Assembly (NCBI GenBank): GCA_945907245.1 | Contig: CAMDTB010000009.1 | Coordinates: forward strand, 1 to 64,000 | Length of the DNA: 64,000 nucleotides | Origin: Rhizobium sp. Q54 | Lineage (GTDB): Bacteria > Pseudomonadota > Alphaproteobacteria > SMXS01 | Direction: 5' to 3' | Part shown: positions 2,348-22,726 of the stretch, piece after piece | Layout of the letters: each line of letters opens with the position of its first letter | Numbering within the stretch: the stretch's first letter is position 1 | The notes under the pieces: model-generated | Databases searched by the model: none | What the model was told of the DNA's origin: nothing | Seen by the model: only the letters and a program-made list of their open reading frames with translations | Translations under genes and position numbers: made by a program

Positions 2348-2842
2348 TTACAGGGACGGCGGAAACTCGCCCGGGAAGCCTTCCTTCACTTCGCGGGTGG
2401 GCCAGAAGAAGTAGAGGCTGCTGCGCTGGATCCTCCAGTGGCCGTCCACCTTGCGGTAGTCCTCATCATAGAGGCCGAGATAGTTGATCGGCGATTCCGT
2501 CGGCTCCTTGAAGCTCGCGCCGTTCAGCAGGTAGCGGCGGCCCACGGCGGTGTCGGGGCCGGTCAGCTCGACCCAGTGATTGGTGTTGGCGCGCAGCACC
2601 TTCATCGGCACCCAGCCATTGCCCTCGGCGCGGGCGCGGAAGCCCTCGTGGATCGCCTCGCGGCCTTCCCAGACGCCGTAATGGCCGAATTCGCAGCGCG
2701 CGTCGGGCAGGAACAGCTCGATCATCCGATCCAGCTGGTTGGCGTCCATCAGCTGGGTGAACTTGACCATCAGCTTGCGGACGGCCTCGACCTCCAGCAA
2801 CTCCCGCACCAGGCCGATCTCCTCGGCCGTCAGTTCCGTCAT
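2348..2842 (-). CDS. Nuclear transport factor 2 / SnoaL-like protein
   Basis: A 164-residue protein with the SnoaL-like cone fold pattern. An N-terminal helix carries LMVKFTQLMDANQLDRMIELF, the segment DARCEFGHYGVWEGREAI follows, and a C-terminal strand set ends in GHWRIQRSSLYFFW. Members bind small hydrophobic molecules; some are isomerases, hydroxylating-dioxygenase small subunits or polyketide cyclases. The catalytic role here cannot be assigned. It lies 22 bp downstream of the MFS gene and is probably co-transcribed, so its ligand may be what that transporter moves. Confidence 0.75.
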   Translation of the reverse strand: MTELTAEEIGLVRELLEVEAVRKLMVKFTQLMDANQLDRMIELFLPDARCEFGHYGVWEGREAIHEGFRARAEGNGWVPMKVLRANTNHWVELTGPDTAVGRRYLLNGASFKEPTESPINYLGLYDEDYRKVDGHWRIQRSSLYFFWPTREVKEGFPGEFPPSL

Positions 2843-2864
2843 GCCAACCTCCCCGTTGAATCCA

Positions 2865-4163
2865 TCACGCCATCACCTTGCCTTGCGAGATTTCCAGATC
2901 CTCGCGGTAATGGCGTCCCGCGAGATAATAGTGCCAGGCGCCCCACAGCCCCAGCATGGACACGATGATCAGAGAATAGCGCAGCGAGTCGCTGCCGTAA
3001 TAGGGCAGCAGCAGGTCGCTGATGAGGCCCACCGCGACCGGGCCGAGGCCCAGGCCGATCAGGTTGATCACGAACAGCAGGATGGCCGAAGCCTGCGCCC
3101 GCATCCGCAGCGGCGACAGGGTCTGCACCATGGCGAAGGTGGAGCCCTGGTAGGTGGCCGCGAGCGCGATCATCGGAATGAACGCCAGCATGGCGATCCA
3201 AAGGTTGTCCGGCAGGTAGAACAGGAACACCAGCGGGATGGCCACCACCTTCGACACCGAGACGACCCACGGCGTCCAGCGCGGATCCTTCTCGCTCAGG
3301 CGGTCCGCCAGCTTGCCGGCGACGATGGCGCCGATAATGCCCATGAAGCCGCCCGCCGGCCCCATCAGCAGGCCGACTTCCTTGCCGGTCAGGCCGTGCG
3401 AGCGCATCAGGAACGCCGCGCCCCAGGCCGAGATGCCATAGCCGACGAAGGCGACCAGCGTGCACCCGGTGATGGTGTGCCGCAGGCTGCGGATGCGCCA
3501 GAGATGCACGAAGGCATCCGCCAGCCCCTGCTTGTCCGGTGCCGCGTGGACCGTGTCGGCCACGCCGCGCGCCGGCTCGCGGACGGTAAAGCGCACCAGC
3601 AGCGCAAGCGCCAGGCCAGGGATGCCGACGACCAGGAAAGCGGCGCGCCAGCCATAGGCGTCCTCGACCATGCCGCCGATCAGCGCGCCGAACATCAGGC
3701 CGATATGGATGCCCCAGGAATAGATCGCCATCGCCGAGGTCCGCTCGCGCAGCGGATACATGTCCGCGATCATCGAGTGCGACGGCGGGCCGGCGCCCGC
3801 CTCGCCGATGCCGACGCCGATGCGCGCCGCCGCCAGCTGCCAGAAATTCTGCGCCGCGCCGCACAGCGCGGTCATGCCCGACCAGATGGCGACCGCCCAC
3901 GCGATGATGTTCCGGCGGTTGGAGCGGTCGGCCAGCATGGCGACGGGCAGCCCGAGCCCCGCGTAGAAGATGGCGAAAGAGAACCCGGTCAGGAAGCCCA
4001 TCGCCGTGTCGGAGACCCCGAACTCCTCCTTGATGGGCTGCACCAGGATGTTGATGATGCTGCGGTCGATGAAGCTCGACGTATAGACAACAACGAGCAA
4101 AAACAACGTGTAGCGACGCGTCGACGCGTCGATCGGTTCCCCCTGGGCTCCCGCGTGAGCCAT
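2865..4163 (-). CDS. MFS transporter, spinster-like family
   Basis: A 432-residue integral membrane protein with about 12 hydrophobic segments. The early helices contain the family pattern FIDRSIINILVQPIKEEFG. The inter-helix motif A (ADRSNRRN) follows the second segment, and GIGEAGAGPPSHS lies in helix 4, both typical of spinster-type major facilitator proteins. Substrates of bacterial members are mostly unknown; lipophilic or aromatic acids are suggested from context in other genomes. It is first in a two-gene minus-strand unit with the SnoaL-like protein and divergent from typA. Confidence 0.85.
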   Translation of the reverse strand: MAHAGAQGEPIDASTRRYTLFLLVVVYTSSFIDRSIINILVQPIKEEFGVSDTAMGFLTGFSFAIFYAGLGLPVAMLADRSNRRNIIAWAVAIWSGMTALCGAAQNFWQLAAARIGVGIGEAGAGPPSHSMIADMYPLRERTSAMAIYSWGIHIGLMFGALIGGMVEDAYGWRAAFLVVGIPGLALALLVRFTVREPARGVADTVHAAPDKQGLADAFVHLWRIRSLRHTITGCTLVAFVGYGISAWGAAFLMRSHGLTGKEVGLLMGPAGGFMGIIGAIVAGKLADRLSEKDPRWTPWVVSVSKVVAIPLVFLFYLPDNLWIAMLAFIPMIALAATYQGSTFAMVQTLSPLRMRAQASAILLFVINLIGLGLGPVAVGLISDLLLPYYGSDSLRYSLIIVSMLGLWGAWHYYLAGRHYREDLEISQGKVMA

Positions 4164-4250
4164 GCAACCCCTCCCGTTTTCCCGGCTTGTTTATTGTGCC
4201 CAGAAAAGCATCACGCGTGGCCCGGCGCTACCGATTTCGTGCGTAAAATC

Positions 4251-4278
4251 TTGGCAGCTACGAAAAAAACGCTATGGC
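4251..4278 (+). promoter_or_regulatory. Possible typA promoter
   Basis: TTGGCA (4251-4256) and TATGGC (4273-4278) are separated by 16 bp in the AT-richer stretch upstream of typA. The fit to sigma70 boxes is moderate. No Shine-Dalgarno is evident just before the typA ATG, so the transcript may be initiated on an unstructured leader. Confidence 0.35.
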
Positions 4279-4336
4279 GCTAAAGAACTTCGCCCCATAT
4301 AACCGCGCCTTCACAAAACTCGGATAACTATATCCT

Positions 4337-6160
4337 ATGACCGACACGATCCGCCGCCTGCGCAACATTGCCATTATCGCCCATGTCGACCATGGCAAGA
4401 CCACGCTGGTCGACAAGCTGCTTCGCCAGTCCGGCACGCTCGAGACGCGTGGCGAGCAGGAAGAGCGGGTCATGGACTCCAACGACATCGAAAAAGAGCG
4501 CGGCATCACCATCCTGGCCAAGAACACGGCCATCACCTGGGAAGGCTGGCGCATCAACATTGTCGACACCCCCGGCCACGCCGACTTTGGCGGCGAGGTC
4601 GAGCGCGTGCTGTCGATGGTGGATTCGGTGCTGCTGCTGGTCGACGCGGTCGACGGCCCGATGCCGCAGACCCGCTTCGTCACCAACAAGGCGCTGCAGC
4701 GCGGCCTGCGCCCGATCGTCGTCATCAATAAGGTCGACCGTCCCGGCGCGCGCCCCGACTGGGTCGTCGACCAGACCTTCGAACTGTTCGACCGCCTCGG
4801 CGCGACCGACGAGCAGCTCGATTTCCCGGTGATCTACGCCTCGGCGCTCGAAGGTTGGGCGACGAAGGACCTCGACAAGCCGGCCGAGGACATGCGCGCC
4901 CTGTTCGAGACCATCGTCGAGCACGTGCCGGAGCCCGACGTCAGCATCGACGGCTCGCTGCAGCTGCAGGTCAGCGCGCTGTCCTATTCGTCCTATGTGG
5001 GCGTCATCGGCATCGGCCGCATCCAGCGCGGCAAGATCAAGCGCAACACCCGCGTCACCGTGATCGGCGCCGACGGCGCGACCCGCAGCGGGCGCGTGCT
5101 GCAAATCCTGGGCTTCCACGGCCTGGAGAAGATCGAGGTCGAGGAGGCGGAAGCCGGCGCGATCATCGCCTTCACCGGCCTCGAGAAGCTGCATATCTCC
5201 GACACCATCTGCGACCCTGACAATGTCGAGGCGCTGCCGCCGCTGGTCGTCGACGAACCGACCATCACCATGACCTTCCAGGTCAACGATTCGCCGTTCG
5301 CGGGCCGCGAGGGCAAATACGTCACCAGCCGCAACATCGCCGCGCGCCTGGAAGAGGAACTGATCCACAACGTGGCGCTGCGGGTCGAGCAGACCGACGA
5401 TTCGAACCGCTTCAAGGTGTCGGGCCGCGGCGAGCTGCATCTGTCGATCCTGATCGAGAACATGCGCCGCGAAGGCTACGAGCTGGCGATCTCGCGTCCC
5501 GAGGTGATCCTGAAGACCATCGACGGCGAGGTCTGCGAGCCTTGGGAGTCGCTGACCATCGACGTCGAGGAGCAGCACCAGGGCGCCGTGATGGAGAAGA
5601 TCGGCGAGCGCCGGGGCGAGCTGCGCGACATGGTGCCCGACGGGCGCGGCCGCGTGCGTCTCGACTACTACATCCCCAGCCGCGGCCTGATCGGCTTCCG
5701 CTCGGAATTCATGGCGACCACGGCGGGCGACGGCCTGATCTATCACACCTTCGAGCGCTATGCGCCGCGGGTGAACGCGGTGATCGGCGGCCGTCACAAC
5801 GGCGTGCTGGTGTCCATGGCCTCGGGCAAGGCGCTGGCCTACGCCATCTTCAACCTGCAGGAGCGCGGCCGCATGTTCATCGGCCATGCCACCGAGGTCT
5901 ATGAAGGCATGATCGTCGGCATCCACGTCCGCGACAACGACCTGGTGGTCAACCCGCTGAAGGCCAAGCAGCTCACCAACATCCGCGCCGCCGGCACGGA
6001 CGAGGCGCTGATCCTGGTGACGCCGATCCAGACCACGCTGGAATACGCCCTCGAATTCATCAACGAGGACGAGCTGGTCGAGGTGACGCCGAAATCCATC
6101 CGCATCCGCAAGAAGCAGTTGCTCGAGCACGAGCGCAAGAAGGCGTCGCGGGCGGCCTGA
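4337..6160 (+). CDS. typA: Ribosome-associated translational GTPase TypA/BipA
   Basis: A full-length (607 aa) EF-G-like GTPase. The P-loop AHVDHGKTT (residues 14-22), switch region [13 protein letters not shown] and NKVD guanine motif are all intact. They are followed by domains II, III, V and the TypA-specific C-terminal domain ([17 protein letters not shown]). TypA binds the ribosome and aids large-subunit assembly and stress responses, notably at low temperature. The stop is followed within 20 bp by a palindromic repeat that probably ends the transcript. Monocistronic. Confidence 0.97.
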
Positions 6161-6180
6161 GCGCTCTTTCCCCCTCTTTT

Positions 6181-6267
6181 ATTGTCATCCCGGCGGAAGC
6201 CGGTACCCAGCGTTCGTAGAGCTGTGTCCTTGCCCCACTGGGTCCCGGCTTCCGCCGGGATGACAAT
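6181..6267. repeat. Palindromic intergenic repeat (type B, GTCATCCCGGCGGAAGCCGG arms)
   Basis: Perfect 23-bp arms at 6181-6203 and 6245-6267 (ATTGTCATCCCGGCGGAAGC and three more bases, and its complement) flank a 41-bp loop. The element sits between convergent typA and a DMT transporter gene, and its right edge touches that gene's stop codon. It is a REP-like element and likely acts as a two-way terminator. A degenerate relative occurs at 62174. Confidence 0.8.
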
Positions 6268-7211
6268 CATTGGGAGGGTTGAGACGGCTTCTCCCCCGGC
6301 ACATACAGCCGTCTTATCGACAGCCATACCGCGACCAGAGCGACACTGATCCCCGCGAATTCCTGCGCCGTCGGCACCTCGCCGACGGCGACGAACACGT
6401 AGATCATCCCGAACACCGCCTCGAAGATGATCATCTGGCCCAGGATGGTCAGGTCGAGCACCTTCGACGCCATGTTGAACAGCACTGTGCCGAGCCAGGT
6501 GGAGCCGCCGCCCAGCAGCACGCTCCACAGCGCCAGCATGGCCAGTTCGCCGCCGTCGATCTCGGTGGGCATGCGCGCCAGGCCTGTTCCCCATGCGATG
6601 GGCAGGGCGACCAGCGCGGCGGCCAGCGACACCAGGCCGACCACTGAGCTCCATTCCTGCGGCGTCACCAGGTGCGTCTCCTGCAGGAAGCGGGCGTTGA
6701 CGACGGCGTACCAGGTCCACATCACCAGCGCGAGGAAGATGGCCGCCATGCCGAGCGGCGCCAGTTCGGAGGGCGCGCCGGAGAAATCCGTTTTCGCCGT
6801 ATTCGCCAGCACCACGCCGGCGCAGAACAGCGCCAGCGGGAAGGCGAGGGGCTTCAACGCGCCGATCCCCTGCTGCAGCCGTCCCGCCACGGTCACCGTC
6901 ACCGGCGCCATGCCGATGATCAGCACCCCCATGGACGCGCCGGCCCACTGCATGCCGATGACCAGCAGGAAGTAGTAGGCCACGTTGCCGGCCATGGCGT
7001 AGACGAACGCCCGCCAAAGCACCCCGGGCGGCAGCCGGATGGCGCGCCGCAGGTCGAACAGCAGCAGCGAGATCAGGCCGTAGGCGATGGTGCGCCCCAG
7101 CGTCACCTCGATGGCGCTCGCGTTCGGCAGCGCGATCGGCGCGACGAACGCCAGCCCCCACACGGCGCAGGTGGCGATCATCAGCAGGATGCCGAGCAGG
7201 AAAGGGTTCAT
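6267..7211 (-). CDS. DMT family transporter (EamA domains)
   Basis: About ten hydrophobic helices in two tandem EamA repeats, 314 residues from the chosen ATG. The frame is open 19 codons further upstream, but those residues are polar and unlike a first transmembrane helix. I therefore start at MNPFLLGILLMIATC. Such proteins are drug/metabolite exporters of the inner membrane; the substrate is unknown. It is an isolated gene whose stop overlaps the neighbouring palindromic repeat. Confidence 0.8.
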   Translation of the reverse strand: MNPFLLGILLMIATCAVWGLAFVAPIALPNASAIEVTLGRTIAYGLISLLLFDLRRAIRLPPGVLWRAFVYAMAGNVAYYFLLVIGMQWAGASMGVLIIGMAPVTVTVAGRLQQGIGALKPLAFPLALFCAGVVLANTAKTDFSGAPSELAPLGMAAIFLALVMWTWYAVVNARFLQETHLVTPQEWSSVVGLVSLAAALVALPIAWGTGLARMPTEIDGGELAMLALWSVLLGGGSTWLGTVLFNMASKVLDLTILGQMIIFEAVFGMIYVFVAVGEVPTAQEFAGISVALVAVWLSIRRLYVPGEKPSQPSQ

Positions 7212-7295
7212 GGGCGCCCGGTTCGGGTGGACTGTCTCACCAATAACCCAGACGTTCCGTCCGCGCACGCCGGAACCGGGACGCGCAGGCGCGCG

Positions 7296-8345
7296 TCAGG
7301 CCGGCGCCATCGCCTGCTTCGACAGCACCGGCATCACCTCGGCCGCGAACAGCTCCACCGAGGCGCGGACCCGGTCGAATGGCATGCCGCCCTGGTCGCT
7401 CTGGATGATCAGACGGTCGACGCCGCCCGCCGCCTCGATCCAGCGGCACAGGTCGTCGGTCACCTCGGCCGGGCTGCCGGCGATGGCGATGCAGTCCGGG
7501 TTGCCCAGGGTCATGTGGCTGGGCGGGAACTGCCGGCCGACGACGCCGATCTCGCGCAGCACCCAGTTCAGATAGCCGAACTGGTGCGGCCCGAAATAGT
7601 CGCGGGCCTTGCTGCCGTCGCGGTCCACATGGCAGTGGAAGCTGACAGCCACCTTCATGTTTTTCGTATCGTTCCGCGAGGCGCGGTACTGCTCGCGGTA
7701 GCGGGCGATCAGGTCCTTCATGGTGCCGAAGCCGGTCGATACCACGGCAATGGCTATGGGCAGGCCCTTCGCGGCGGCCATGTCGACGGCGTCGGGCGAG
7801 CTGCCCGACAGATAGATGGCCGGATGCGGCCGCTGCACCGGGCGCGGCTGCTGGGTCACGCCGTCGAGCGGCGCGCGGAACCGGCCGCTCCAGGAAATCG
7901 TCTCGCCGGTCCACAGCAGGCGCAGCAGGTCGAGTCCCTCGTCGGTCATGGCGCGGGACTGCTCGATATCCTGGCCCATATGTTTGTAGGTGTGGGGGAA
8001 CACGCCGCGGCCGATCACCACCTCGGCGCGGCCGCCCGACAGCACGTCGAGGGTGGCGAAATCCTCGGCGATGCGCAGCGGGTCGTGGTGCGGCAGGAGC
8101 GTGACGCCGGTCGACAGCTTCACTTTCGTCGTGTGCTCGGCGATGGACGCCAGCACCATCTGCGGCACCGAGACGATGTAGTCGCTGAAATGGTGCTCGC
8201 CCAGATGCACCGCGTCGAAGCCCAGCCGGTCGCCCAGCGCCGCATAGTCGACGATCTGGCGGAACCGCTCGGCCTGCGTGGTTGTCAGCCGCCCGGTCGC
8301 CGGGTCCGGCAAATGATCGCCAAGCGACATCAGCCCGAATTCCAT
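7296..8345 (-). CDS. LLM class flavin-dependent oxidoreductase
   Basis: A luciferase-like monooxygenase TIM barrel of 349 residues. The N-terminal strand MEFGLMS, the segment LGEHHFSDY near residue 50, and STGVTLLPHHDPLRIAEDFA are typical of FMN-dependent alkanal monooxygenase-like enzymes. RAEVVIGRG follows as in the family. These enzymes insert oxygen using reduced flavin supplied by a partner reductase; no reductase gene is adjacent. The gene shares strand with the VWA gene to its right (77-bp gap). Substrate unknown. Confidence 0.85.
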   Translation of the reverse strand: MEFGLMSLGDHLPDPATGRLTTTQAERFRQIVDYAALGDRLGFDAVHLGEHHFSDYIVSVPQMVLASIAEHTTKVKLSTGVTLLPHHDPLRIAEDFATLDVLSGGRAEVVIGRGVFPHTYKHMGQDIEQSRAMTDEGLDLLRLLWTGETISWSGRFRAPLDGVTQQPRPVQRPHPAIYLSGSSPDAVDMAAAKGLPIAIAVVSTGFGTMKDLIARYREQYRASRNDTKNMKVAVSFHCHVDRDGSKARDYFGPHQFGYLNWVLREIGVVGRQFPPSHMTLGNPDCIAIAGSPAEVTDDLCRWIEAAGGVDRLIIQSDQGGMPFDRVRASVELFAAEVMPVLSKQAMAPA

Positions 8346-8422: not shown

Positions 8423-9448
8423 TCAGGCGGCCTGGGTTTCGTGCCGCGCCGGCTTTCCGGCGACCACGTCCATCGCCAGCGCGAGCAGATCCTCGGGCAG
8501 GCTTTCCAGCCCGGCATTGCGGCTGTGGCGGTAATAACGGCTCACGTCGTGGCGCACGCCCAGGCCGCCCAGCCGGATGGCGCCGTCCGCCTCGATCCCC
8601 GCGATGGTGTTCAGCAGATGGCGCTCCAGATAGGCCGGCCCGTTATGCATGAGAGTGGTGTCGTCCGTCGCGGCGCCGTCGGAGATCACCAGCAACACCC
8701 TGGTCATCGCGTCGAGGTTCCGCAGCCGGCCGGCAGCCCACTCCAGCGCCTCGCCGTCGATATTCTCCCGCAGGATGTCGGGGTGCAGCATGGCCTCACG
8801 CGACGCCCGCGCCCATTCGGGCTGGCCGTGGCTCTTGTAGATGATGTGCAGCAGCGCGCACAGCCGGCCGGGCCGCGGCGGCCTTCCGTCTTTCAGCCAC
8901 TTCTTGCGGGCGAAGCCGCCGTTCCATCCGGCCGTCGAGAAGCCGAGGATTTCGATGCGCGCGCCGGCGCGGCTGATCGCCGACTCCACTCCGGCGATGG
9001 CGGCATAGGCTGCCGACATGGGATCGCCGCGCATGGAACCCGACTGGTCTATCAGCAGCGTGATCGCAACGTCCGACGGACTGGCGATTCCGCCGGCCCG
9101 GAGCGCCGACGCGAAACGCTGCGTCATGTCCATGGCCTGGGGATGCTCGGCCATCCAGCGCTTGGCGGACTCGACCCGCTGCCGCCAGCCCTTGCCGCCC
9201 CGATCGGACTTGCCGTTGAACGCGTCGTCGCTGGCGTCCGGCAGGTGCTTCGGCACGTCCTCGGCCGGCAGGATGAGGTCGTAGTCGCGTGTATAGACCT
9301 TGTACGGCTCGGTCTCCGGAGCATCCGCGGCCGGCTCGGCCGCGCGTTGGCGGCGGCGGCGGTTACGATAGTCCCACAGCGTGACCAGCCCGATCAGGGC
9401 GATGGTGCCCAGAAACACCAGCTCCTTGGTCGTGGCCGCCATGTCCAT
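8423..9448 (-). CDS. Membrane-anchored VWA protein related to the CobT C-terminal domain
   Basis: A 341-residue protein. Residues about 9-25 form one hydrophobic helix followed by a basic NRRRRQR stretch, so the rest should lie in the cytoplasm. A VWA domain begins near residue 127 with the complete MIDAS motif DQSGSM (134-139). From there to the end it aligns without large gaps to the C-terminal third of the CobT encoded at 19844-21700, sharing [19 protein letters not shown] and the HDVSRYY/HDVTRYY region. It lacks CobT's N-terminal domain and acidic linker. The ATG preceded by AGGAGAG is chosen over an upstream GTG. No AAA ATPase is adjacent. It may use the distant CobS or have its own role. 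Confidence 0.82.
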   Translation of the reverse strand: MDMAATTKELVFLGTIALIGLVTLWDYRNRRRRQRAAEPAADAPETEPYKVYTRDYDLILPAEDVPKHLPDASDDAFNGKSDRGGKGWRQRVESAKRWMAEHPQAMDMTQRFASALRAGGIASPSDVAITLLIDQSGSMRGDPMSAAYAAIAGVESAISRAGARIEILGFSTAGWNGGFARKKWLKDGRPPRPGRLCALLHIIYKSHGQPEWARASREAMLHPDILRENIDGEALEWAAGRLRNLDAMTRVLLVISDGAATDDTTLMHNGPAYLERHLLNTIAGIEADGAIRLGGLGVRHDVSRYYRHSRNAGLESLPEDLLALAMDVVAGKPARHETQAA

Positions 9449-9608
9449 CAGTCTCTCCTCTTTTGCGCACACTATGGAGCAGTTGACGCCCGGCGATCCA
9501 GCGCCGACCAGTGGCTTCTCTCGAACTGACCATTGTGTTAGCGTTCGGCCTGACCGGGATGCCTTGGGGATAGGGCATCCGCATCAGACATGACAACGGG
9601 GAAGACCG

Positions 9609-10985
9609 ATGAACATCTATGATCCGCAGCCGAACATGAAGCCGGGCGAGGCCCGCTGCCCGGGCCCGAGCACCAGGGACCTGGTGCTGTCGGACGGCTG
9701 GGAGCTGCCGGCCCAGTTGCTCGCCGAGAACTACGTCTACATGGGCGACGAGGACATTCCGTTCGACCGCTATACCTCGAAGGAATTCTTCGAGCTCGAG
9801 ATGACGAAGATGTGGAACAAGACGTGGCAATGGGCCTGCCGCGACGAGCACATCCCCGAGGTCGGCGACTACTATACCTACGACATCGGTCCTTACTCGG
9901 TCATCGTCGTGCGCGCCGCGCCGGACGAGGTGAAGGCCTACGTCAATTCGTGCCTGCACCGCGGCACCCAGCTGCGCCCGTCCGACTCGACCGGCAGCGT
10001 GCAGAACTTCCGCTGCCCGTTCCACGGCTGGACCTGGAACCTGGACGGCTCGCTGAAGGAAATTCCCTGCCGCTGGGACTTCCCCAAGGTGACCGACGAG
10101 GAATTCCGGCTGCCCGAGGTGAAGATCGCCAAATGGGGCGGCTTCTACTTCATCAACATGGACGAGAACGCCATGCCGCTCGAGGAGTATCTCGGGCCGC
10201 TGATGGAGCACTTCGCCAGCTGGCCGCTCGACAACCGCTACGTCCGGCTGCACATCCAGAAGATCCTGCCCGCCAACTGGAAGGCGTCGCAGGAAGCGTT
10301 CGTCGAGGCCTATCACAGCCTCGAGACCCATCACCACGCCATGCCGTTCTCGGCCAACCTCAACGCCCAGTACGACATCTTCAGCGAGCGGGTGACCCGG
10401 TTCTTCCACACCTTCGGCTTCCCGGATCCGAGCTGGACCAAGCCGCAGACCCAGCAGGAGCTTCTCGACACCATGGGCATGCTGCCCGCCGGCACCAAGG
10501 TGCCGGACGGCATGACCGCGCGCGCGTTCCTCGCATCCTATTTCCGCAAGAGCCTGGGCGAGGATCGGGGCATCGACCTGTCGACGCGCTCGGACAGCGA
10601 GATGCTGGACTCGATCGAGTACCACCTGTTCCCCAACATGTTCCTGTTCCCCGGCGTGTCGCTGCCCATGGTCTACCGCTTCCGGCCCAACGGCATGGAT
10701 CCGGACAGCGCCATCTTCGACCTGCTGTTCCTCGAGGAATTGGCCCCCGGCCAGGAACGGCCCGAGGCGCCCGAGCCCTACAAGATCGACATCGGCACGT
10801 CCTACGAGACCGTGCCCGGCATCGGTCCGTTCCTCGGCCATGTCTACGACCAGGACACGGGAAATCTGGAGATGCAGCAGAAGGGCTTCAAGGCCGGCCG
10901 CAAGCGGACCCAGACCCTTGGCAACTACCAGGAAATCCGCATCCGCCGGCTGCACAAGACCCTGGATAGTTACCTGAACGCCTGA
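9609..10985 (+). CDS. Aromatic ring-hydroxylating (Rieske) oxygenase alpha subunit
   Basis: A 458-residue Rieske non-heme iron oxygenase. The Rieske [2Fe-2S] ligands are C115, H117, C136 and H139 in the CxH-x18-CxxH arrangement. The catalytic iron site follows in EAYHSLETH with H236 and H241. Length and spacing fit an alpha subunit that hydroxylates an aromatic or other ring. No beta subunit, ferredoxin or reductase gene is nearby, so electron partners must come from elsewhere. It heads a plus-strand group with acyl-CoA dehydrogenase, LLM and phosphotransferase genes, but a terminator-like hairpin separates it from them. Confidence 0.92.
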   Translation: MNIYDPQPNMKPGEARCPGPSTRDLVLSDGWELPAQLLAENYVYMGDEDIPFDRYTSKEFFELEMTKMWNKTWQWACRDEHIPEVGDYYTYDIGPYSVIVVRAAPDEVKAYVNSCLHRGTQLRPSDSTGSVQNFRCPFHGWTWNLDGSLKEIPCRWDFPKVTDEEFRLPEVKIAKWGGFYFINMDENAMPLEEYLGPLMEHFASWPLDNRYVRLHIQKILPANWKASQEAFVEAYHSLETHHHAMPFSANLNAQYDIFSERVTRFFHTFGFPDPSWTKPQTQQELLDTMGMLPAGTKVPDGMTARAFLASYFRKSLGEDRGIDLSTRSDSEMLDSIEYHLFPNMFLFPGVSLPMVYRFRPNGMDPDSAIFDLLFLEELAPGQERPEAPEPYKIDIGTSYETVPGIGPFLGHVYDQDTGNLEMQQKGFKAGRKRTQTLGNYQEIRIRRLHKTLDSYLNA

Positions 10986-19843: not shown

Positions 19844-21700
19844 CTACGCCGCGCGGCGCTTTGCCTTGTCCTTGGGGCGTTTGCTGTCTTCCTCGAACAG
19901 CGAGGCGAGCTGGTCGGTCATGGCGCCGCCGAGCTGCTCGGCGTCGGTGATGGTGACGGCGCGCTTGTAGTAGCGGGTCACGTCGTGGCCGATGCCGATG
20001 GCGATCAGCTCCACCGGCGACTTGGTCTCGATCCAGTTCACCACGTGGCGCAGGTGCTGCTCCAGGTAGTTGGCCGGGTTGGCCGACAGGGTGCAGTCGT
20101 CGACCGGCGCGCCGTCGGAGATCACCATCAGCACACGGCGGTTCTCGGAGCGCGCCATCAGGCGGTTGTGCGCCCACAGCAGCGCTTCGCCGTCGATGTT
20201 CTCCTTCAAAAGGCCTTCCTTCAGCATCAGGCCCAGATTCTTGCGGGCCCGGCGCCACGGCGCGTCGGCGTTCTTGTAGACCACGTGGCGCAGGTCGTTG
20301 AGCCGGCCCGGATTGGCGGGCTTGCCGTTCGCCAGCCACTTCTCGCGCGACTGGCCGCCTTTCCACGCGCGGGTGGTAAAGCCGAGGATCTCGACCTTGA
20401 CGTGGCAGCGCTCCAGGGTGCGCGCCAGGATGTCGGCGCAGATCGCCGCGATGGTGATCGGCCGGCCGCGCATGGAGCCTGAATTGTCGAGCAGCAGCGT
20501 CACCACCGTATCGCGGAAATCCGTGTCTTTTTCGCGCTTGAACGACAGCGGATAGTACGGATCGATGATGATGCGGGTCAGCCGCGACGTATCGAGCATG
20601 CCCTCCTCGATGTCGAACTCCCACGACCGGTTCTGCTGCGCCATCAGCCGGCGCTGCAGCCGGTTGGCGAGCTTGGCGACCGCCCCCTGCAGCGCGTCGA
20701 GCTGGCGGTCCAGCTGGGTGCGCAGGCGGTGCAACTCCTCCGGGTCGGCCAGCTCCTCGGCGGAGATGACCTCGTCGAATTCCTCGGTGAAGGTGGTGTA
20801 GGCGCGGTCGCGCTTGTCGTTGCGGCCGTGCTCGGGGCGGTAGGGCGCCTCGCCCTGGTTCTCCTGGTCGCCCTGCTCGCCGTCCATCTGCTGTTCGGTC
20901 TCGATGGTGACCGTCTCCAGCGATTCGTCGTCGGTGAGCTGCTCGCGCATCTCCACGTCGGACACGGACTTGCCGTCGGGGCTCGAATCCTCGGAGTTGT
21001 CGCCGTCCCCGTCCTTCTGCATCTGCTGGGACTCGGTCTGCTCCTCGCCCTCGGCATCCTGCTCGCGGTCGTCGCCCAGCTCGTCGCCCAGGTCCAGGTC
21101 GGCGATGATCTGGCGGGTGATGCGGGCAAAGCGCTTCTGGTCCTCGAACGAGCCGTCGAGCTCGTCCAGGTCCTTGCCAGCCTTGGCCTCGATCATGCCC
21201 CGCAGCAGATCGACCATCTCGCGGGCGCCTTCCGGCGGCACCGCGCCGGTCAGCCGCTCGCGCACCATGAAGCCGACCACGTCGGCAAGCGGCACGTCGT
21301 CGGTGGTCCTGATCTGGTCGTAGCCCTTGACGCGCGACCGCTCGGCGAGCGCGGCGTCCAGGTTCATGGCGACGCCGTCCATGGTCTTGGCGCCGATCGC
21401 CTCGATGCGTGCCTGTTCGGCGGCGTCGAAGATACCGCGCGCGGTGCTCCCAACGGGCAACAGCGCGGAGTGGACGTTGCGGTCGTGATGCTTGATGCGC
21501 AGGGCGATGGCGTCGGCCGCGCCGCGCACCAGCGCCGCGTCCCGCGCCGTCAGGTCGCGCGAGGGGGTCGGCAGGCGGCCGGGACCTGGCGTGTTCTGGG
21601 CGCTGAAGGTCAGGTCGAGCTCGCGGTCCTCGGAAATCGCCCGCGCCGCGCCGACGACGGCCCGCTTGAACGGCTCTATGGGGCTTTCGGGAGCGGCCAT
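19844..21700 (-). CDS. cobT: Cobaltochelatase subunit CobT
   Basis: A 618-residue protein of classic CobT layout: an N-terminal helical domain (1-200), an acidic Asp/Glu/Gln-rich linker (about 203-300), and a C-terminal VWA domain with MIDAS motif DNSGSM (405-410). CobT with the AAA ATPase CobS forms the chaperone-like part of aerobic cobaltochelatase, which inserts cobalt into hydrogenobyrinate diamide together with CobN. It follows cobS by 9 bp. CobN and other cob genes are not in the window. Alternatively, CobST can act with other partners; the assignment to B12 synthesis follows family knowledge. Confidence 0.95.
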
Positions 21701-21709
21701 CTTGATCCC

Positions 21710-22726
21710 TTAGGCGTTGACCGCCTTCTTGGCCGCGCCGGCGGCCTGGGCGACCGCGGACTCGGGCAGCTCGACGCCGAAAACCCGCTGGTAGTACTCG
21801 GCGACCAGCGGACGCTCCAACTCGTCGCACTTGTTGAGGAACGACACGCGGAACGAGAAGGCGAGGTCCTTGAAGATCTCGTTGTTCTGCGCCCAGGTGA
21901 TCACGGTACGAGGCGACATCACGGTCGACAGGTCGCCGGCCATGAAGCCCGCGCGGGTCAGGTCGGCGATGCGGACCATGCGGTTGACGGTGTCGCGGCC
22001 CTCGGCGGTGTTGTAGGTCGGCGACTTGGCCAGCACGATGCCGACCTCGGCGTCATGCGACAGGTAGTTCAGCGTGGTGACGATGTTCCAGCGGTCCATC
22101 TGGCCCTGGTTGATCTGCTGGGTGCCGTGATAGAGGCCGGTTGTGTCGCCGAGGCCGATGGTGTTGGTGGTCGAGAACAGCCGGAACGACGGGTGCGGAT
22201 GGATCACCTTGTTCTGGTCCAGCAGGGTCAGGCGGCCTTCCACCTCCAGCACGCGCTGGATCACGAACATCACGTCGGGGCGGCCGGCGTCGTACTCGTC
22301 GAACACCAGGGCGACCGGGTTCTGGATCGCCCAGGGAAGGATGCCCTCGCGGAACTCGGTGATCTGCTTGCCGTCCTTCAGGACGATGGCGTCCTTGCCG
22401 ATCAGGTCGATGCGGCTGATGTGGCTGTCGAGGTTGACGCGGACACACGGCCAGTTAAGACGCGCCGCGACCTGCTCGATATGGGTCGACTTCCCAGTGC
22501 CGTGATAGCCCTGCACCATGACACGGCGGTTGTGGGCGAATCCGGCCAGGATCACCATCGTGGTGTCATGGTCGAACAGGTAGGCATCATCCCGGGGCGG
22601 CACATATTCGTTGCCGCTCGAGAAGGCGGGCACCGTGATGTCGCTATCCAGACCGAATACTTCCCGAACCGAAACCTTGGTGTCCGGCAACCCGTTATGT
22701 CCGGGCATGTTGTTTTCCGACGTCAT
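21710..22726 (-). CDS. cobS: Cobaltochelatase subunit CobS (AAA+ ATPase)
   Basis: A 338-residue MoxR-like AAA+ ATPase. Walker A is GYHGTGKS (73-80) and Walker [10 protein letters not shown] (138-146), with sensor segment [11 protein letters not shown]. The N-terminal [16 protein letters not shown] is typical of CobS. It assembles with CobT into a ring complex that drives cobalt insertion by CobN in cobalamin synthesis. The ATG overlaps the stop of the J-domain gene as ATGA, so the two are translationally coupled, and cobT follows closely. Confidence 0.96.

Follow-up and report, generated by a model that had tools for sequence, protein, structure and literature searches.

Genome annotations routinely label the proteins CobS and CobT as subunits of cobaltochelatase. 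CobS, which forms an AAA+ ring, is the known partner of CobT-type VWA proteins, and VWA domains of the generic kind can function without any such ring. Full-length CobT (TIGR01651; PDB entries 9uka and 21vt) joins an N-terminal PF06213 domain and an acidic linker to a C-terminal VWA domain of the CobT_C family (PF11775). A second informative system is NorD, the VWA partner of the MoxR-type AAA+ ring NorQ (PDB 9qh6), whose VWA domain possesses a MIDAS and a finger-like insertion proposed to bind the pore of the NorQ ring. Mutants of the NorD MIDAS retain NorQ binding and lose activity on the target, and specificity for the target is suggested to come from the variable, non-conserved N-terminal domain (PMC9976466). 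NorD is most likely cytosolic, is encoded next to NorQ, and has a known client, cNOR.

For frameshifted chlD genes of other bacteria, the small and medium subunits of a chelatase are reported where the large one is missing (PMC9227772), and it has been noted that cobNST annotations are possibly non-specific (PMC8123684).

The window analysed here, a stretch of 64,000 nucleotides from Rhizobium sp. Q54 (contig CAMDTB010000009.1), encodes full-length CobT and CobS together with a shortened second CobT-type copy that is most probably not a cobaltochelatase subunit and that is predicted to be anchored in the membrane (Table 1).

Table 1. Features of the VWA locus and of the CobST genes, with positions counted from the first letter of the window.
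Feature	Position	Strand	Basis
Luciferase-like monooxygenase (LLM) gene, downstream of VWA gene	7296..8345	minus	Pfam
Membrane-anchored CobT_C VWA protein gene, 341 aa	8423..9448	minus	translation, ATG start; CobT_C 146 bits; orthologues 93% and 85%
ENIDGEA motif, residues 228-234	8747..8767	minus	invariant in CobT_C alignments
Conserved insertion and candidate 'finger' for an AAA pore, residues 174-206	8831..8929	minus	kept as in CobT; finger role inferred from NorD
CobT_C VWA domain, residues 126-309	8522..9073	minus	Pfam, BLASTP, fold search
Further MIDAS ligands T172 and D257	8933..8935 and 8678..8680	minus	alignment
MIDAS DxSxS = DQSGS, residues 134-138	9035..9049	minus	alignment
CobT-like segment preceding the VWA domain, residues 49-63 (YKVYTRDYDLILPAE)	9260..9304	minus	alignment with CobT and further CobT_C proteins
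Basic stretch RNRRRRQR, residues 28-35	9344..9367	minus	sequence and charge count
Predicted transmembrane helix, residues 10-26	9371..9421	minus	hydropathy, flanking charge, AF2 helix, kept in orthologues
Probable ribosome-binding site GAGGAGAG upstream of VWA gene	9453..9460	minus	sequence read directly
Divergent Rieske oxygenase gene, neighbour	9609..10985	plus	Pfam
CobT, full length	19844..21700	minus	TIGR01651 869 bits
CobS AAA+ subunit, proposed ring partner	21710..22726	minus	PF12556 and PF07728

The Gene, Its Product and Its Neighbours

The open reading frame lies exactly where an earlier, sequence-only reading of the window had placed it, and its strand, which that reading did not give, is minus. 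Prediction also bears out the single N-terminal transmembrane helix claimed there: hydropathy (KD-19) ranges from 1.6 to 1.95 in three orthologues, at or above the usual threshold but near it, net charge is -1 ahead of the hydrophobic helix and +2 to +5 after it in the same three proteins, and residues 3-37 form one helix in an AF2 model (alignment depth of eight rows, mean pLDDT 73.9). By the positive-inside rule, a basic flank stays cytoplasmic. Since the basic stretch follows the hydrophobic helix, the VWA domain and the C-terminus are predicted to be cytoplasmic, with an N-out/C-in anchor; for the same reason, export of the VWA domain behind a signal peptide was rejected.

The MIDAS is intact, as had been claimed, with D134, S136, S138, T172 and D257 all present in the alignment. 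Ahead of the VWA domain, Y49, T53, D57 and E63 are invariant in the alignment with CobT and other CobT_C proteins. The candidate finger is modelled with low confidence, with block pLDDT values of 51-64 over residues 171-200 of the AF2 model. A PADLOC search gave no match to the protein.

Pfam assignments of the neighbours agree with the statement that no cobS, cobN or moxR gene adjoins the VWA gene. The gene for CobS lies about 12 kb away, and the adjacency to an AAA gene that is seen in adaptors of the NorD, CbbO and ViaA type is absent. The LLM gene is probably co-transcribed with the VWA gene. The order of the divergent Rieske gene, the VWA gene and the LLM gene is kept in all three species that have the VWA gene, which answers the question of neighbour conservation posed by the sequence-only reading. 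Rieske oxygenases form a large set in the genome that contains the window, with 54 matches and luciferase-like flavoenzyme genes nearby. Elsewhere in the window, the spacer that separates the EamA gene from the TypA gene contains, at about 6170-6280, an inverted repeat (GTCATCCCGGCGGAAGCCGG...CCGGCTTCCGCCGGGATGAC) that looks by eye REP-like or terminator-like.

A Shortened CobT-Type Protein

Profile searches place the protein firmly in the CobT_C family (PF11775: E 1.6e-42, 146 bits, cut-off 21 bits), with only 16 bits for the generic VWA profile and no match to VWA_CoxE (PF05762) at E up to 1. No unrelated VWA family outscores CobT, and a better fit to another such family was thereby ruled out. 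BLASTP against the window's own CobT aligns residues 49-309 in 282 columns with 36% identity (E 7e-52), rising to 46% in the core, residues 126-309. An alignment along the "whole C-terminal two thirds" of the protein had been described; this is slightly generous, in that the match is strong over residues 126-309 and extends only more weakly to residue 49. Both the 13-residue shared motif and the HDVSRYY motif named in that description are present in the alignment. In common with CobT, the protein has the MIDAS, the EILGF, PGRL, ENIDGEA and SDG motifs and the preceding Y-x-x-[YF]-T...D segment.

Unlike CobT, it has no acidic linker, and Pfam finds no PF06213 domain in it (the domain is present in the window's CobT), as the sequence-only reading had held; a predicted transmembrane anchor is added instead. 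Because this N-terminal half is missing, the protein scores 197.8 bits against the TIGR01651 CobT equivalog, far below the curated cut-off of 759, with the best stretch at residues 126-308.

Of 131 core positions that are highly conserved among 32 CobT sequences, the protein keeps 74. They are spread unevenly: 11 of 16 positions in the MIDAS strand, 12 of 17 in the SDG region, and 2 of 14 in helix alpha-1. In residues 174-232, spanning the insertion, 22 of 37 highly conserved CobT positions are kept, together with ENIDGEA. Such survival of the insertion and ENIDGEA alongside the loss of helix alpha-1 points, at the level of sequence, to selective retention.

Searches of the PDB by sequence returned CobT entries as the only strong matches. 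By fold, the best match was the VWA domain of NorD as bound to the NorQ ring (9qh6; E 4.9e-10), at 16% identity in the fold alignment, and next came other NorQD entries and the AAA-linked MDN1, ahead of generic VWA domains. CobT entries were absent among the 50 fold matches listed, from a library that runs to April 2026.

Distribution, Selection and Origin

Full-length orthologues were found only in two other species of the same genus, with identities of 93% (G003) and 85% (G001), and when the first 126 residues were used to scan GTDB contigs, two loci alone came up, namely these two copies. One contig with an alphaproteobacterial orthologue (L033, CALQFM020000041.1) is titled Candidatus Kuenenia stuttgartiensis and is probably a mislabelled bin. 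Both orthologues retain the anchor and the basic stretch, and motif residues are mostly invariant. The dN/dS of the VWA gene is 0.12-0.27, varying with the pair and the method, compared with about 0.01-0.02 for CobT and 0.01-0.15 for the Rieske gene. The gene is thus under purifying selection and functional, but evolving faster. With most motif residues invariant and dN/dS well below 1, both a chance open reading frame and a pseudogene are ruled out.

Three genus mates (G002, G005 and G006) have no VWA copy at the site; a fourth, G004, was left out of the comparison since its contig ends there. In G006 the LLM and Rieske genes are present without the VWA gene, in G002 neither the VWA nor the LLM gene is at the site, and G005 has there about 76 bp of conserved sequence followed by a gene that resembles, by eye, a TonB-dependent receptor. 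Searches for remnants of the VWA gene in these three genomes gave no convincing protein-level match. Being found in three species only and missing at the site in three genus mates, the gene is accessory.

As for its origin, both trees place the three orthologues on a long branch outside the well-supported clade of the family's CobT proteins. Forcing the trio together with those CobTs costs 4.45 log-likelihood units, and a common clade is not rejected (p-AU 0.39). Long branches make the trio's position unsafe, and since the branch that joins it to other VWA-only proteins is very short (0.0024), that grouping is not relied upon. The VWA gene may have diverged from the resident CobT, as the word "paralogue" in the sequence-only reading implies, or a mobile CobT_C may have been acquired.

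CobST Without CobN

The genome that contains the window (98.3% complete) has both CobS and CobT and lacks the CobN of a cobaltochelatase: no protein of the CobN/ChlH/BchH family (PF02514) was matched in it, nor in G003 or G005. Moreover, CbiC/CobH was not found in any of nine genomes searched (the window's genome and eight others, including G001 and G002). With neither a large subunit nor CbiC/CobH, tetrapyrrole metal insertion by a class I chelatase is unlikely, and the earlier suggestion that the VWA protein might serve metal insertion into another tetrapyrrole is not supported. G001, G002 and G007 have a PF02514 large-subunit protein and no CbiC/CobH, and for this reason their "CobN" may serve no corrin synthesis either.

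Among 60 related genomes surveyed, 45 possess CobT, 22 possess CobN and 21 possess both, so that CobT occurs without CobN (counting any PF02514 protein) in 24 of the 45 CobT-bearing genomes, single-contig genomes included, and in 17 of 36 when high-quality CobT genomes are considered. The CobST pair, then, widely outlives CobN. The same puzzle is raised by chlD in the absence of a large subunit (PMC9227772), and no experimental paper on CobST without CobN was found in the literature library searched.

A Possible Membrane Adaptor for CobS

By analogy with NorD and NorQ, our leading if still tentative proposal is that the protein acts as a membrane-tethered adaptor for the CobS ring and remodels a membrane client. 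Its makeup would be that of a CobT_C module (the short YxVYT...D segment plus the VWA domain with its insertion) in which a membrane anchor replaces the N-terminal half of CobT. The insertion would plug into the CobS ring at its pore, the metal ion of the MIDAS would bind an acidic residue of a client that lies in the membrane or is associated with it, the anchor would place the complex at the membrane, and ATP hydrolysis by CobS would remodel the client, much as NorQ and NorD act on nitric oxide reductase. We infer the topology, the binding of CobS, the client and its remodelling alike. Recruitment of CobS to another client, as the sequence-only reading had raised, is nevertheless reasonable, because CobS is the partner of CobT, the genome has no MoxR protein (AAA_3) above the cut-off, and the two other AAA_5 proteins examined reside in clusters of their own. 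Also in favour of the proposal are the clear CobT_C identity, the intact MIDAS, the selective retention of the insertion and ENIDGEA, the best fold match to a ring-bound NorD, the CobS gene about 12 kb away and the anchor shared by the orthologues. Against the proposal stand the lack of any operon or neighbour link between the VWA gene and CobS, the low confidence of the modelled insertion, a helix hydropathy close to threshold, and a range of only three species.

Other readings deserve consideration. It is possible, though on the unlikely side, that the protein is a ring-independent membrane scaffold: its VWA domain would use the MIDAS to hold a partner there, with CobS uninvolved. That no AAA gene adjoins it would suit such a role, as would the capacity of generic VWA domains to work alone, and the arrangement that it shares with the LLM and Rieske genes across three species could mean a local function; retention of the CobT-specific insertion and ENIDGEA, and a best fold match to a ring-bound VWA domain, argue the other way. 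An unlikely option is a regulator or decoy of CobT that competes for CobS, tuning the CobST complex or holding it at the membrane. In its favour, the putative ring-binding side is kept without CobT's N-terminal half, and the host genomes carry a complete CobST pair; yet a MIDAS that is both intact and conserved points to a separate ligand, and the protein evolves independently of CobT and is missing from several relatives that have CobST.

Service to a different AAA+ ring seems improbable. The genome has 15 AAA_5 matches, which leaves room for one, and two besides CobS (on contigs C7 and C23) were examined; the C23 gene already adjoins a CoxE-type VWA gene and the C7 gene sits within a SWIM cluster, and the VWA domain at issue is of the CobT rather than the CoxE type. 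Least probable is a metal-inserting subunit for another tetrapyrrole, for which only the homology to CobT speaks: the N-terminal half of CobT is missing from the protein, as are CbiC/CobH and any CobN/ChlH/BchH-family protein from the genome, and the absent large subunit largely refutes this reading.

CobT_C in Other Architectures

The CobT_C module recurs without CobT's N-terminal half in several settings. Proteins of the VWA-only kind were found in a second alphaproteobacterial genus (L042 and L043, 337-341 aa), on viral contigs (L047 at 2890-3732, 280 aa; L049 at 2998-3858, 286 aa) and on a Rhizobium plasmid (L081). They differ from the membrane-anchored protein in that none of the five has a strongly hydrophobic N-terminal helix. 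Conservation of that helix, on which the sequence-only reading had made its case depend, therefore holds for both orthologues and stops short of these more distant homologues. In a further variation, the N-terminal part is replaced by a TIR domain, not a membrane helix, with Pfam TIR_2 and CobT_C both above cut-off. One such fusion is on a viral contig (L046, 2116-3948) and another is on an Agrobacterium plasmid (L080, 4001-4723 plus in-frame upstream sequence), where DUF262, a further TIR gene and an integrase lie close by.

No CobS match was found near the VWA-only or TIR-fused genes, in flanks of <1 kb to 4 kb that are partly cut by contig ends. By contrast, plasmid CobT genes of Burkholderiaceae have a CobS match nearby. 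The missing CobS fits a ring supplied in trans. Across 385 genomes of the class, separate second CobT copies were seen only in the source genus and in the genus of L042 and L043; two further genomes have two partial matches each, which resemble split CobT genes at contig ends. On a Methylobacterium oryzae plasmid (L085), one long hypothetical protein (2480-4891) contains a region that resembles a diverged CobT_C, and about 1.2 kb after it comes a MoxR family ATPase (6106-7332) that is 31% identical to CobS.

It is conceivable, albeit rather speculative, that many Alphaproteobacteria use CobS as a shared AAA+ hub and not as a chelatase motor, and that CobT_C is an exchangeable adaptor cassette, with the full CobT, membrane-anchored, soluble VWA-only and phage- or plasmid-borne TIR-fused forms each directing this one host ring towards a different client.

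Implications

Genomes that lack CobN turn the client of CobS into the central question. A membrane-tethered CobT module that is maintained by selection offers a handle on the work of the CobST motor in the absence of CobN, with the client expected at the membrane. Finally, if the cassette view were true, phages and plasmids that carry CobT_C may redirect a host motor, and not boost vitamin B12 synthesis.
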